Below, one piece after another: positions 42,525-47,076 of a stretch of 64,000 nt of DNA. Both the position numbers and the translations under genes were made by a program. The notes beneath the pieces were generated by a model. It was not told the origin of the DNA and did no database searches. It saw only the letters and a list, made by a program, of their open reading frames with translations. How positions within the stretch are numbered: position 1 is the first letter of the stretch; the number at the start of each line of letters is the position of its first letter. The stretch is from Paenibacillus sp. FSL H7-0357 (GTDB lineage: Bacteria > Bacillota > Bacilli > Paenibacillales > Paenibacillaceae): positions 2,852,001 to 2,916,000 of the forward strand of contig NZ_CP009241.1 of the NCBI RefSeq assembly GCF_000758525.1, given 5' to 3'.

Positions 42525-43387
42525 AGTCAATCTATAAAAGTCCCTTGGGTAAAGAAAAAATACTTCACATCTATGACAAGCTGCAATCCCGGCTGGATAC
42601 GAAATTTGAGAGCAGATACGTGGATACGCGATTTGGCAAAACCCATATTTTAGTCGGGGGTGATGAAACGGCACCACCCTTAATTTGCTTTCATGGAGGA
42701 AATGTAGTAAATCCAATAACGCTCAAGTGGTTTGAACCTCTATCGAAGAACTATCGTATTTATGCGCCAGATACCATCGGACATCCGGGCAAAAGTGATG
42801 AAATCCGGCTCAATCCCAAAACAAATGAATATGCTGAGTGGGTTTGTGATTTTATGGATGGTCTGGGTCTAGCGAAGGCGAAATTTATCGGCCCCTCATA
42901 CGGAGGCGGAATACTTATACGTTTGGCTGCCTACGCACCTGAGCGTATTGAAAAAGCAGTATTTCTTGTACCTTCAGGTATTGCGGGAGGTAAAATGACC
43001 GGCATGATGAGGAAGATACTCATTCCGCTTGCTGTATATAAAGTTATTTCTACCGATAAAAATTTATACAAGGCTTGTGCAGCAATGTTCGATGATGAAA
43101 TCCATGAAGATTTGTTGTTGCAGATACAATACATATATGATTATGTCCGGTTGGAAACGGTATTTCCCAAGTATGCAACCAAGGAAGAATTGATGGCGTA
43201 CACCGCACCTTCCTTACTAATTGTCGCTGATCAAGATATATTTTTTCCTGCTGAACAGGTTGTTCCAAGGTCGAAAGAGATTTTTAATCAGCTGCAAAAA
43301 ATTGTTGTCCTGGAAAATGCAAGCCATTTTCAAAACAACAGAAACCTTGAAACTATTATTAATGAAATAGAGAATTTTTTTGAATAG
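42521..43387 (+). CDS. Alpha/beta hydrolase
   Basis: A 288-residue alpha/beta-hydrolase. The oxyanion-hole motif is CFHGGN, the nucleophile elbow is GPSYGGG (Ser near residue 128), an acidic residue is found in LIVADQDIFF and the catalytic histidine in NASHFQNN near the C-terminus. A cap domain (about 150-210) is present. The substrate is unknown; the TetR regulator encoded in the same operon suggests an inducible small-molecule hydrolase. It shares the AT-rich composition of that regulator. The stop is followed by a clear terminator. Confidence 0.9.
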   Translation: MKSIYKSPLGKEKILHIYDKLQSRLDTKFESRYVDTRFGKTHILVGGDETAPPLICFHGGNVVNPITLKWFEPLSKNYRIYAPDTIGHPGKSDEIRLNPKTNEYAEWVCDFMDGLGLAKAKFIGPSYGGGILIRLAAYAPERIEKAVFLVPSGIAGGKMTGMMRKILIPLAVYKVISTDKNLYKACAAMFDDEIHEDLLLQIQYIYDYVRLETVFPKYATKEELMAYTAPSLLIVADQDIFFPAEQVVPRSKEIFNQLQKIVVLENASHFQNNRNLETIINEIENFFE

Positions 43388-43403
43388 TTCTGCCCGTATT
43401 GGC

Positions 43404-43447
43404 AGGCTCTTGATTTGGCAGTGATGCCATCAAGGGCCTTTTTTGTA
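43404..43447 (+). terminator. Terminator after the hydrolase gene
   Basis: GGCTCTTGATTTGGCA and TGCCATCAAGGGCC pair around GTGA, followed by TTTTTT. Confidence 0.88.
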
Positions 43448-43480
43448 TTTATTAGAGTTATGAGGAAATGGAAAGTGTGC

Positions 43481-43528
43481 TTTACATTGAAAAAGGTGAA
43501 TGCTATTATTATGGAAAGTTAACTTTCC
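43481..43528 (+). promoter_or_regulatory. Promoter and palindromic operator of the XRE operon
   Basis: TTTACA at 43481-43486, 17 nt, TATTAT at 43504-43509. It is followed at 43513-43528 by the perfect 16-bp palindrome GGAAAGTTAACTTTCC, which covers the expected start of transcription. This arrangement fits autorepression by the XRE protein. Confidence 0.75.
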
Positions 43529-43548
43529 GTAATCAGTGAGGTGAAAGC

Positions 43549-43752
43549 ATGGAAAACAGATTGGAGCAGCTTCGTAAGGAGCGGGGGATTAAGCAGGAGG
43601 AGCTTGCCGAGGCATTAGAAGTTTCGCGGCAGACCATTGGTTCGCTCGAAAATGGGAGATATAATCCGTCCATTATTCTAGCCTTTAAAATTGCCCGCTA
43701 TTTCAAGCTGGCCATTGAAGATATTTTTATCTATGAGGAGGAATCGGAATGA
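43549..43752 (+). CDS. XRE family regulator (67 aa)
   Basis: A 67-residue protein that is almost only a helix-turn-helix (LRKERGIKQEELAEALEVSRQTIGSLENGRYNPS), the size of YozG-type regulators. GAGGTGAAAG lies before the ATG. The palindrome at 43513-43528 is its probable operator. The stop overlaps the start of a membrane protein (ATGA), a common XRE plus membrane-protein pairing in Firmicutes in which the membrane protein may relay a signal or be the regulated product. Confidence 0.92.
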   Translation: MENRLEQLRKERGIKQEELAEALEVSRQTIGSLENGRYNPSIILAFKIARYFKLAIEDIFIYEEESE

Positions 43753-44171
43753 AAATGAACAAGACAGTTTGGCTGTTTACTATTCTGCTGCTGCTTGGAG
43801 GTATTTTGACTGTAGTCGGCCTTCTGGTGATTGATGAAAGTACAGAAAAGCTTGCCGGAATATGTGTGGGGATAGGCTCGGGGCTGTTCAGTATGAGTGC
43901 TGCTAATCTTATCGTTCAAGGGTATTACCGGAAGCACCCCAAGCTCAAAAAGCAGGCTGTGATTGATTTCCGCGACGAACGCAATACAGCTATCCGGATG
44001 AAAGCCAAGGCCAAAGCCTTCGATATTATGTTTGTGGTCATGATTGCACTGCCGTTTCTGTTTATCTTTGCAGGGATTTCTCTATGGGTGGTGTTGACTA
44101 CCATTGGCCTTTATTTATTTGGCTATTTTACGCAACTCTTCTACATGATTAAATACAGCAAACAGATGTAG
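43749..44171 (+). CDS. Four-helix membrane protein paired with the XRE regulator
   Basis: A 140-residue protein with four membrane helices in two pairs (about 8-28, 38-58, 92-110, 113-132). They are separated by a basic cytoplasmic segment (KHPKLKKQAVIDFRDERNTAIRMKAKAKA). Such proteins regularly follow small XRE regulators; their function is not known. Translation is coupled to the regulator by the ATGA overlap. The conserved-looking Arg-Asp-Glu-Arg-Asn block could be a binding site. Confidence 0.75.
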   Translation: MKMNKTVWLFTILLLLGGILTVVGLLVIDESTEKLAGICVGIGSGLFSMSAANLIVQGYYRKHPKLKKQAVIDFRDERNTAIRMKAKAKAFDIMFVVMIALPFLFIFAGISLWVVLTTIGLYLFGYFTQLFYMIKYSKQM

Positions 44172-44227
44172 CCGATTTAGGAGAAGCGGGAATACAAGGA
44201 GTTACATAACACTGGAGGAAGATCACA

Positions 44228-44884
44228 ATGGATGTTGCTGCGAAGAACAGGATGCATTGGGAATTAACCTATATTTTTTTTCTTACGGCGCTGATAACGA
44301 CATTGGCGGGAATTGTTCGTGAGTTGCCACATGCGATTGCCATTGCCGGATTCACAGCTGCGTTTGCGGCAAATATTTGGATCTGGAAGAAGAGTATCAG
44401 CCGGACTGTTATTTATCTGCACAATGGTTTGAACATCGTCTGCGCACTGTTTCTGGCGTATATGCTGTCAGCCTACATATTCGTCTCGGAGAGTGCGATT
44501 ATTGGTGCTGCCCTCGGAGTGGTGGTAATGGATGTGTTTAGTTTCACCAAGAGAGGGCGGTTCACACTTAATGCCAAACTAATGGGACAAAATAATACAG
44601 CCGTGCGGCTGTCCATCTGTCTTCCGGTTCCCGGGAAACGGGGGCTGATTCCGGTTATCGGTGTGGGGGATTTGGTCTTTTATTCGATGCTGACAATGGT
44701 TGCATTGAAATCGGACAGTGAGTTCGGCCTGTTATTTGCTGTATTGCCCATTCTGGCAGGACAGCTGCTGAACATTGCCGTGATTCTTGCTGTTAAAGAT
44801 AAAAAGGGATTCAAAGGCTTCCCGGCAACCTTAATGCCCGGATTGTTGTTTATTGGTTTTTATTTTACAGGTATCCCGGCATAA
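44228..44884 (+). CDS. Presenilin/SPP-like GxGD intramembrane aspartyl protease candidate
   Basis: A 218-residue protein with about seven membrane helices. Residues Asp102 (in VVMDVFSFTKRG) and Asp148 (in IPVIGVGDLVFYSML) lie within helices. The second fits the GxGD motif of presenilin, signal peptide peptidase and their archaeal relatives, and the following FYS matches presenilin closely. A basic loop follows Asp102, as in presenilin. The last helix opens with FPATLMPG after a lysine-rich loop, in the place of the PAL motif. Prepilin peptidases also use GxGD but have different surroundings. Found 56 nt after the XRE/membrane-protein pair, with GGAGG before the ATG. The protease call is inference from motifs; length is shorter than eukaryotic presenilin. 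Confidence 0.6.
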   Translation: MDVAAKNRMHWELTYIFFLTALITTLAGIVRELPHAIAIAGFTAAFAANIWIWKKSISRTVIYLHNGLNIVCALFLAYMLSAYIFVSESAIIGAALGVVVMDVFSFTKRGRFTLNAKLMGQNNTAVRLSICLPVPGKRGLIPVIGVGDLVFYSMLTMVALKSDSEFGLLFAVLPILAGQLLNIAVILAVKDKKGFKGFPATLMPGLLFIGFYFTGIPA

Positions 44885-45542
44885 AAAGCGGCTTCCAGAC
44901 CTCGGGGATTTGCCCGGGGTCGGAGCAATATACCGTTTGCAGATAGCGGCTTACCGGAGTCAATTGCTGTTCAACCAGCACTTCTTTGATCTCGGAAGGT
45001 TTGGTTGGGATCGAATGTCCGGCAGCTTCCATGAAACGTTCAATGGGCAGCAGCATCCCGCAGCTCTTGCGGTAAGACATCCGGTGCGGATAACGCGGGG
45101 AGCTTCCGGAGTCATATTTGGACAGCCTGATATGTTCAAAATGATCACTCAGCAGTTCATAGGCGGAGAATTTCAGGATGGCAAAATGTTCGCCGGGTTC
45201 TCTGCGGGAGTACATAGCAGCCATGGCAAGGCAATCACGCTCTGTCGGCCACAGGAAGACATGCCGGTCAAGGCAGGCGCGGAATTGCTCCGGTGTTGTT
45301 TCCGGGTCCATGGCCTCAGGAGTGATCCGCAGATGGGCATTTAACCAGACTGAGCGGCCTTGATAGCGGGACTGCTGCAGCGTCGTCCGGTGCACACCGC
45401 ATGCATGCTCAGGGTCCAAAAGCACGGATGCGGCCAGTCTGTCCAGTCCGGCAATAGCCGGAAGATTACGTGCTCTGGTGAAATGGTAGAGCGAGCGTCT
45501 TAACGGGCTTTTAGTGATAGCTGCTAGGGTGGTTGTTTTCAT
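44865..45542 (-). CDS. DUF7002-like protein, possibly ADP-ribosyltransferase fold
   Basis: A 225-residue soluble protein. LYHFTRARNLPAI near residues 18-30, a WLNA segment near residue 70 and RVFLWP-type HVFLWPTERD near 95 resemble DUF7002/DUF4433-like proteins. In these an H-x-T...NLxxI start, as in the DNA ADP-ribosyltransferase DarT, marks the NAD site. No activity is established. The ATG at 45542 begins 16 nt downstream of the DUF2812 gene's stop, so it belongs to the PadR operon; AAAGGA is eleven bases upstream. It overlaps the convergent presenilin-like gene by 20 nt. The family assignment is tentative. Confidence 0.55.
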   Translation of the reverse strand: MKTTTLAAITKSPLRRSLYHFTRARNLPAIAGLDRLAASVLLDPEHACGVHRTTLQQSRYQGRSVWLNAHLRITPEAMDPETTPEQFRACLDRHVFLWPTERDCLAMAAMYSRREPGEHFAILKFSAYELLSDHFEHIRLSKYDSGSSPRYPHRMSYRKSCGMLLPIERFMEAAGHSIPTKPSEIKEVLVEQQLTPVSRYLQTVYCSDPGQIPEVWKPLFMPGYL

Positions 45543-45558
45543 ATTGGCATTTTGTCCT

Positions 45559-46713
45559 TTACGGTCTACTGTTTTTGAGACGCCGGTAATACAGCCAGGT
45601 TCTGCCCGCAAACGACCCGAAGAGGAGCATGCAGATGAACATTAGCGAAGTGTTCCATGCCCGGGAAGCGGTGATTCCGTCATTTAGCATGCCATCAATG
45701 AATGCCCCCAAATTCACGCTATAGAGCAGAAGCAGCGGGAGGAATAGCGAAGTATAGCTGATGGCGATTTTTCGGGCGTGCTTCAAGCGGTGGAATTGAT
45801 CGCTGTATATTTCAGGGCGCTCAGCGCCTTCCGAATATTCCCGGCTCCAGATCGTCCATTTCTGCAAGGAGGAGAGGGAGCTATAGACGTTCTTCCAGCC
45901 GGCTTCCCTGTGCAGCTCCAAATAACCTTCATCGGAAATCACTTGATAGTCGGCATGATAGTTCATCCGCCGTGGGCTGCCTTTGCAGAAATAGAACAGC
46001 GTCCCGCCTAGACCGACTTTACACAGATTAAATCCAAGCCGTTCTTTGTTCTCAAGCCACTGCTCCAGCCGGTCCGGAGCGTACATCCAGGCTAGTTTGA
46101 TCCGGATGATCTTGGGTCCGGCAGGGTCGGGCTGTACGTCAAGTTCGTAGCTGTCTTGATTGTCCCCGCGTAATGTTTTATTGGCTGCCCTGATCTTGAT
46201 AACGGAATAGAACGCGAGTACCAGCAGAGCGATGGCAAAGGCTCCAGCGATATAGGTAACCAGCCACATGGGGCTTTTCACTACCCGGAGGGGCGTATCA
46301 TGGGAAAGGGAAAAACCTATCGTGATTAGCGGAATTAGTGCAATTAATAACAAATAAAAGATAATCGCCATGAAAAAATAAGAAATCTTCCGGTTTCGCT
46401 TGATCGCTTCCTGGCGGGAGGGGTAGGCGTTAATTTGGCCGGGTTGCCGTTCATTGGCATAAATGGTCCACTTCCCTTGATGCACGTTCCTTGTCCAGCC
46501 CTCAGCGGCCAGATAGGTGGACAAGGAGGTTTGAGCTGATGGAGCATACCCGATTTGATAGGTAATGTTACCCGGCTTGCCCTGCCGGAAAATAAACCGC
46601 CGAAGTTTAATATTCCATCCTTCAAGCAGCCATCCCTGGCTGGCCATCCCGGTCAGCCAGGTTTCTGTTTTGAGCAAGTCATAGCTCCAGAAAGGCCGAA
46701 ATACAGTCTTCAT
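45559..46713 (-). CDS. DUF2812 membrane protein with two DUF2812 units
   Basis: A 384-residue protein. Residues 1-90 form a DUF2812 unit (FWSYDLLKTETWLTGMASQGW). Two membrane helices follow (about 112-132 and 150-170), then a second DUF2812-like unit (about 205-275, LEQWLENKERLGFNLCKVGLGG), and two more helices at the C-terminus. DUF2812 proteins are nearly always coupled to PadR regulators, as here (ATGA overlap with the upstream padR gene). They are thought to act as membrane partners or anti-sigma-like regulators, but their function is not settled. GAGGAGGAA precedes the ATG. Confidence 0.85.
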   Translation of the reverse strand: MKTVFRPFWSYDLLKTETWLTGMASQGWLLEGWNIKLRRFIFRQGKPGNITYQIGYAPSAQTSLSTYLAAEGWTRNVHQGKWTIYANERQPGQINAYPSRQEAIKRNRKISYFFMAIIFYLLLIALIPLITIGFSLSHDTPLRVVKSPMWLVTYIAGAFAIALLVLAFYSVIKIRAANKTLRGDNQDSYELDVQPDPAGPKIIRIKLAWMYAPDRLEQWLENKERLGFNLCKVGLGGTLFYFCKGSPRRMNYHADYQVISDEGYLELHREAGWKNVYSSLSSLQKWTIWSREYSEGAERPEIYSDQFHRLKHARKIAISYTSLFLPLLLLYSVNLGAFIDGMLNDGITASRAWNTSLMFICMLLFGSFAGRTWLYYRRLKNSRP

Positions 46714-47042
46714 AAGAATTCCTCCTCGCAGTTAATCGCATTGTTGTGCAGTTCTTTCAATCTGCCAATTTCTACGGTCATCACTTTTTTTCCAAGCTCC
46801 GATACCTCATATACCGTTTTTCTCTCTTCATCGGCAAATACGGTGATCAAGCCGTCTTTGTTCATTTTGGTCAATGTTCCATAGACCGTACCTGACCCCA
46901 GTCTGAGCCGTCCGCCTGACAATTCTTCAACATGCTTGATGATTCCGTATCCGTGGCGCGGTTTGGTCAGGGACAACAGAATGTAGAATGCTGTCTCGGT
47001 CATCGGCACGTACTTTTTAAGTGCTTTTTCAATGGAGGACAC
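46710..47042 (-). CDS. PadR family regulator
   Basis: A 110-residue PadR winged-helix protein (PMTETAFYILLSLTKPRHGYGIIK, GSGTVYGTLTKMNKDGLI, RKTVYEVSELG). A GTG at 47042 with AAGGTGAT four bases upstream is the likely start, although the frame is open to a GTG at 47060. Three direct repeats just upstream (47077-47114) are the probable operator. It heads an operon with the DUF2812 protein and the DUF7002-like protein. Ligand unknown. Confidence 0.88.
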   Translation of the reverse strand: MSSIEKALKKYVPMTETAFYILLSLTKPRHGYGIIKHVEELSGGRLRLGSGTVYGTLTKMNKDGLITVFADEERKTVYEVSELGKKVMTVEIGRLKELHNNAINCEEEFL

Positions 47043-47076
47043 CAGGATCACCTTTTTCACAAAATATATGTCTCAT

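Follow-up and report, generated by a model that had tools for sequence, protein, structure and literature searches.

In a 64,000-bp stretch of the Paenibacillus sp. FSL H7-0357 genome (contig NZ_CP009241.1, positions 2,852,001 to 2,916,000; hereafter the window, meaning the whole stretch that was analysed), an open reading frame (ORF) at 44228..44884 on the + strand encodes a presenilin-like GxGD membrane protein of 218 amino acids. Presenilin, the membrane-cutting enzyme familiar from Alzheimer's disease, and signal peptide peptidase (SPP) are known chiefly from eukaryotes and archaea; in bacteria, the GxGD proteases usually encountered are the prepilin peptidases. An earlier interpretation based on the DNA letters alone (the sequence-only reading) had proposed a protease of presenilin type at this locus, and the ORF is present as described there. 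The gene is preceded by GGAGG 9 bases 5' of its ATG. D102, the predicted first catalytic aspartate (codon 44531..44533, +), lies in the context VVMDVFSF, and D148, the predicted second (codon 44669..44671, +), lies within the GVGD of IGVGDLVFY. Codons 196-205 (44813..44842, +) encode KGFPATLMPG, with GFPATLMPG at 197-205, in the region corresponding to the PAL motif of presenilin. In the structure model the protein has 7 transmembrane (TM) helices, with D102 in TM4, D148 in TM5 and KGFPATLMPG preceding TM7. The two aspartates fall in adjacent helices (88-106 and 146-161), near the loop-side ends of these consecutive segments, and the loop between them (106-145) contains 7 K/R and 0 D/E.

A sparsely distributed family with invariant aspartates

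Two protein searches returned 85 homologs, from which we worked with two alignments, A1 (53 members) and A2 (86 rows). Those with names are hypothetical or uncharacterized proteins of Paenibacillus, Anaerocolumna, Anaerosacchariphilus, Velocimicrobium and a Lachnospiraceae bacterium, the closest of them being from Paenibacillus. Eight residues are invariant across A2 (D102, S105, F106, G110, N115, G145, G147 and D148), and the invariance of both aspartates and both GxGD glycines includes three rows at 20-23% identity. The GxGD motif is found in 86/86 rows and PAT in 85/86, the remaining row being gapped at that spot; the first aspartate is preceded by methionine in 65 rows, by tyrosine in 2 and by another residue in 19. 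Two additional divergent members, L104 and L105, were recovered by genome search and read in the longer loci L106 and L107. Both keep the two aspartates, and in the PAL region one has FPGT and the other IPAT. The positions that the sequence-only reading gave for the aspartates hold, with an invariance beyond chance, and no homolog without one of them was seen among the 86 rows or the divergent pair. The basic loop it had noticed after D102 is likewise a family trait (mean 6.30 K/R and 0.16 D/E over 86 rows). Between the window gene and its ortholog in L034, nonsynonymous divergence (dN 0.215) is well below synonymous divergence (dS 1.05), which indicates purifying selection on the gene.

The distribution of the gene is sporadic. 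It is present in 4/100 genomes of the genus and in 4/299 genomes sampled from Lachnospiraceae, the family of Anaerocolumna, and in a sample of 398 genomes from the phylum the A2 profile gave a full-length match in its own genome only. Three short matches in 3/398 genomes of that sample (E 1.5e-4 to 0.0074), two with internal stops, were taken as chance. The Pfam presenilin model PF01080 gave a single match in the same 398 genomes, under the cut-off (E 8e-4), and PF06550, the model for archaeal SPP, gave three in 199 genomes, all under the cut-off. Since PF01080 also misses the window gene in this sample, further divergent members in bacteria may have escaped such searches. In a Herbinix metagenome-assembled genome (MAG), the protein matched by PF01080 at 3.0e-6 is a low-complexity SSRNASND repeat protein and was discarded, and one scan of viral contigs found no relative. 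The protein is unannotated and outside the curated family models tested. Among the matches listed in full-text literature searches, whose coverage leaves out most subscription papers, none dealt with a presenilin/SPP family in bacteria.

Profile and fold similarity to presenilin and SPP

Profile comparisons point to homology with the presenilin/SPP superfamily, detectable along the catalytic core. Aligned by hhalign with 33 Asgard-type presenilins (drawn from 123, of which 120 were the best 120 of 486 matches), the bacterial profile reached a probability of 92.5 and E 4.9e-7 over 114 columns, with a score of 53.8 compared to 18.0 and 17.3 for reversed profiles; none of 100 block-shuffled profiles reached this score, their maximum being 27.3. 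Against four archaeal SPPs the probability was 84 (E 7e-6). The predicted catalytic residues pair with aspartates of presenilin/SPP proteins, D102 with D202 (WD) and D148 with D256 (GIGD) of the Lokiarchaeal presenilin L016, and with D180 (YD) and D219 (GLGD), respectively, of the archaeal SPP L096. We also ran the profile by hmmsearch against 723 ORFs of fetched loci combined with the best 120 of the 486 presenilin matches. All 120 presenilins were found (E 4.3e-7 to 0.38), together with three ORFs from Lokiarchaeota and five of archaeal SPPs (E 2.2e-5 to 9.3e-4), and the best decoy (0.81) ranked behind every one of them. A sixth SPP locus, L097, contributed none to the set, as the reading frame of its SPP lacks a stop there.

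The Lokiarchaeal proteins came from a contig scan with patterns that included the GxGD and FPAT stretches, which returned six bacterial and three Lokiarchaeota loci. The latter encode presenilins of 325-327 amino acids (L016:7248-8225, L017:7248-8231 and L018:7248-8231); the two that were scanned both exceed the Pfam cut-off (PF01080 E 1.3e-22 and 5.3e-22), and L016 matches human presenilin 1 (PS1) at E 2.3e-9. These presenilins carry WD instead of YD and PGL instead of PAL.

The structure model likewise argues for a presenilin/SPP fold. In the VIA structural comparison, most PS1 rows begin at model residue 4-9 paired with PS1 73-78; no prepilin peptidase (A24) was among the 50 matches listed, an absence that we do not use as evidence. 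Predicted fold, controlled profile comparisons and the invariance of both aspartates together bear out the proposal of a di-aspartyl membrane protein of presenilin/SPP type.

Several observations weigh against this assignment. In Pfam, Presenilin is the sole match of the window protein, with E 0.54 and 9.4 bits compared to a cut-off of 34.3; only 4/53 A1 members match it at E <= 1 (best E 0.0036), and another A1 member matches the unrelated DUF4131 at E 0.0022. PF06550 is absent among the Pfam matches of the window protein and has no match in its own genome at E <= 10. Pfam by itself is therefore not decisive. Among PDB sequences neither the single sequence nor the profile had a match, and the NCBIfam matches, which we set aside, were to SMR transporters only and weak (E 0.41 and 0.61). 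Foldseek with the model gave a best E of 0.007, none under 0.001, and a probability of only 0.44 for the archaeal homolog PSH. The model has 7 TM helices rather than the nine of presenilin, and the tyrosine of YD appears in 2/86 rows only. The match of the window protein to L016 (E 7e-8, residues 144-206) is not fully independent, as the Lokiarchaeal loci had been found by GxGD and FPAT patterns; because of these patterns we gave more weight to the whole-profile tests. Finally, the 120 presenilins all head a single list and closely resemble each other, and so do not amount to 120 independent tests.

The PAL region adds a further difficulty. In the profile register, K196-G197-F198-P199 aligns with P302-G303-L304-P305 of L016 and with the PGLP at 264-267 of L096, so that P199 pairs with the second proline of PALP and K196 takes the position of the first, which, according to the title of one paper, is reportedly obligatory in presenilins. 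FPAT, which had been read as the PAL motif, therefore lies in the correct region, but residue by residue it is KGFP that aligns with PALP. If TM7 instead has no gap back from the residue pair 218/452, at which several PS1 rows of the VIA comparison end, P199 would by arithmetic meet P433 in PS1 numbering. PSH is described in PMC2947513 as likewise having no obvious PAL motif.

Loop charges suggest the orientation in the membrane. Over 72-86 rows the mean number of K+R alternates from the N-terminus (2.36) through loop 1 (0.79), loop 2 (3.23) and loop 3 (0.62) to the catalytic loop (6.30), loop 5 (0.52), loop 6 (3.42) and the C-terminus (0.27). By the positive-inside rule, under which positively charged loops lie on the cytosolic side, the basic catalytic loop would be cytosolic, with the N-terminus inside and the C-terminus outside. 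This is the orientation of presenilin and opposite to that of SPP.

An XRE operon and other genomic settings

As the sequence-only reading had noted, the GxGD gene follows two genes on the same strand. The first (43549..43752, +) encodes an XRE/Cro-CI type regulator of 67 amino acids (Pfam HTH_3, 9.3e-18) and the second (43749..44171, +) its partner, a polytopic membrane protein of 140 amino acids with probably four TM helices by eye. The partner has only sub-cut-off Pfam matches (DUF6442, DUF4064 and DUF2178), and its single-sequence model is poor (predicted template modelling score, pTM, 0.42). The two genes overlap by the four bases ATGA, and 56 bp with no terminator-like site separate the membrane-protein gene from the GxGD gene. 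Upstream lies a sigma-A-like promoter, TTTACA-17-TATTAT (43481..43509, +), the only one found in 43380-45000. Shuffled sequence gave a mean of 2.8 over this interval, and its score alone is no evidence; the promoter is supported by its location between two operator-like copies. Both have the form TGGAAAGN4CTTT. Copy 1 (43469..43483, +) overlaps the -35 hexamer, and copy 2 (43512..43528, +) contains a perfect 16-bp palindrome, GGAAAGTTAACTTTCC, at 43513. These twin sites are the only ones within one mismatch of ATGKAAAGN4CTTTMCAT in the 7.69-Mb genome. One or more exact GGAAAGN4CTTT cores lie within 160 bp 5' of XRE in 27/29 XRE-bearing loci, which come from related species and are not independent, and cores precede XRE in most fetched relatives that have no protease as well. 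With operator-like sites unique in the genome and cores upstream of XRE, the operon looks closed and autoregulated, with the protease as an optional third gene.

The XRE, membrane-protein and GxGD genes occur in this order in all 4 carriers within the genus, and homologs of the membrane protein are found in 44/100 genus genomes. We fetched 30 of these 44 loci: XRE was present in 29, the protease in 4, and 26 had no protease. At 21 of the 26, the first ORF retained downstream lies, by eye, on the opposite strand. In L039 and L040 the XRE/membrane-protein pair is followed, at the place of the protease, by a same-strand gene that by eye is ABC-ATPase-like.

The setting is different in Lachnospiraceae. 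An AraC-type gene lies directly upstream of the GxGD gene in four loci, three assigned by Pfam (L011, L012 and L014) and one, incomplete, by eye (L015). In the last, from an Anaerocolumna MAG (L015:5170-5837), an AraC gene without its 3' part abuts a GxGD gene without its 5' part, a junction reflecting either a deletion or an assembly fault. The two divergent members have no AraC-type gene directly upstream; both have hydrolase-like genes upstream by eye, one directly behind such a gene (L106:3759-5189) and the other (L107, - strand) preceded by a gene of HNH-like type and, farther upstream, by TetR-, hydrolase- and methyltransferase-like genes. The gene order of the window is kept as a dedicated operon in 4/4 genus carriers, and the membrane partner adjoins the protease in none of the six Lachnospiraceae loci examined. 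Linkage to a regulator is common and not universal, and the genera that hold the four AraC loci are related. As a general partner of the GxGD protein the membrane protein does not qualify.

Other genes adjoin the operon in the window. A DUF7002 gene on the opposite strand (44865-45611, -; Pfam E 9.7e-47) has its end within the final 20 bases of the GxGD gene. A second small regulator/membrane-protein pair also adjoins the operon, a DUF2812 membrane-protein gene beside a PadR regulator gene (45559-47060, -). TetR and alpha/beta hydrolase genes (Pfam) lie farther upstream of the operon, and were rejected as members of the unit: by eye, a TetR gene precedes XRE in L013, and neither gene does so in L034.

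Proposed function and comparison with known systems

We favor the interpretation that the protein is a compact seven-helix bacterial member of the presenilin/SPP superfamily, active as an intramembrane aspartyl protease, and on the evidence of family, profiles and model we place its probability at roughly 0.78. D102 in TM4 and D148 in the GVGD of TM5 would form the catalytic pair, a TM4-TM5 segment with two short predicted strands would replace the TM6-TM7 segment of presenilin, and the KGFPAT segment before TM7 would take the place of PALP. As the catalytic loop appears to be cytosolic, the expected substrates would be TM segments with their N-terminus outside, for example proteins that cross the membrane once, small membrane peptides or the stubs that remain after cleavage by another protease. 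The GxGD gene is probably co-transcribed with the operon under XRE control through the twin operators, acting presumably as sites of repression, and the membrane partner probably modulates XRE. More tentatively, and with odds that we put below even, the bacterial presenilin-type branch may be a self-sufficient seven-helix core placed in one-component regulatory operons (autoregulated XRE in Paenibacillus, AraC in Lachnospiraceae) and, oriented like presenilin, serving regulated intramembrane proteolysis.

Alternatives within and outside the protease class were weighed against this interpretation. The protein might clear remnant signal peptides or small hydrophobic peptides in the manner of SPP, with no signalling role, a specific form of the protease hypothesis that we regard as possible, if unlikely. 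Its neighbours vary among lineages, as this role would allow, and PSH cuts several substrates according to PMC9282858; rarity in the genus and in the Lachnospiraceae sample speaks against a housekeeping task, and the loop charges favor a presenilin-like rather than an SPP-like orientation. About half as likely, and improbable, is the proposed signalling by membrane cleavage, with the protease cutting the adjoining membrane protein and so altering XRE activity. The conserved order in all 4 carriers and the apparently closed operon with its unique operator pair speak for it, yet the membrane protein occurs in 44/100 genus genomes compared to 4/100 for the protease, lacks the protease at 26/30 fetched loci, accompanies it at 0/6 Lachnospiraceae loci and, being polytopic, would be an unusual presenilin substrate. 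The suggestion that the partner is the substrate is for these reasons not upheld, with other neighbours standing beside the gene in the Lachnospiraceae carriers. We consider it similarly improbable that the protein is a catalytically dead or ion-leak member with a retained fold: the absence of the first proline of PALP in the profile register would suit this, and GxGD proteases are said, in the title of Kuo 2015, to act possibly also as ion channels, but none of the 86 rows departs from the two aspartates or the two glycines of GxGD, and these residues persist in the divergent pair. Descent from type IV prepilin peptidases of the PilD/FlaK kind (A24), which are known bacterial GxGD proteases and were found in 38/40 relatives, is very improbable, given an hhalign probability of 0.13 (E 0.45, motif not covered) against 28 A24 proteins of relatives and the ranking of ORFs from A24 loci among hmmsearch decoys (1.1 and worse).

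If the protein is indeed a presenilin-type protease, presenilin-type cleavage would extend to all three domains of life. PF01080 misses a branch backed by both its profile neighbours and its predicted fold. We know of no smaller natural catalytic core behind gamma-secretase. A family of ~218 residues, expressible in bacteria and genetically tractable, would be the smallest of this type and would reveal what purpose the first PAL proline and the two absent helices serve. Presenilin homologs are reported for Asgard archaea in PMC7997004, and PMC7593790 counts an aspartyl class among bacterial intramembrane proteases, exemplified by eukaryotic presenilin.

Compared with known systems (in MEROPS, presenilin in A22A, SPP and SPPL2a in A22B and prepilin peptidases in A24), the prepilin and preflagellin peptidases (PF01478) likewise combine GxGD with a second aspartate in a polytopic membrane protein, but have no profile similarity to the GxGD protein, and to our knowledge no PAL-like segment. 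SPP, SPPL2a and archaeal SPP/PSH (PF06550) have more TM helices and, judging from the loop charges, SPP would be oriented oppositely; PF06550 has no match in the window's own genome at E <= 10. Presenilin (PF01080) itself differs in its nine TM helices, its length (325-327 amino acids in Lokiarchaeota and 467 in human PS1, compared to 218), PALP or PGLP in place of KGFP and YD or WD in place of MD, and the GxGD protein is bacterial and under the Pfam cut-off. What the two have in common is an aspartate in each of two neighbouring TM helices, GxGDLxFYS, a GxP segment ahead of the final TM helix, the predicted fold and a catalytic loop that by its charge would be cytosolic.
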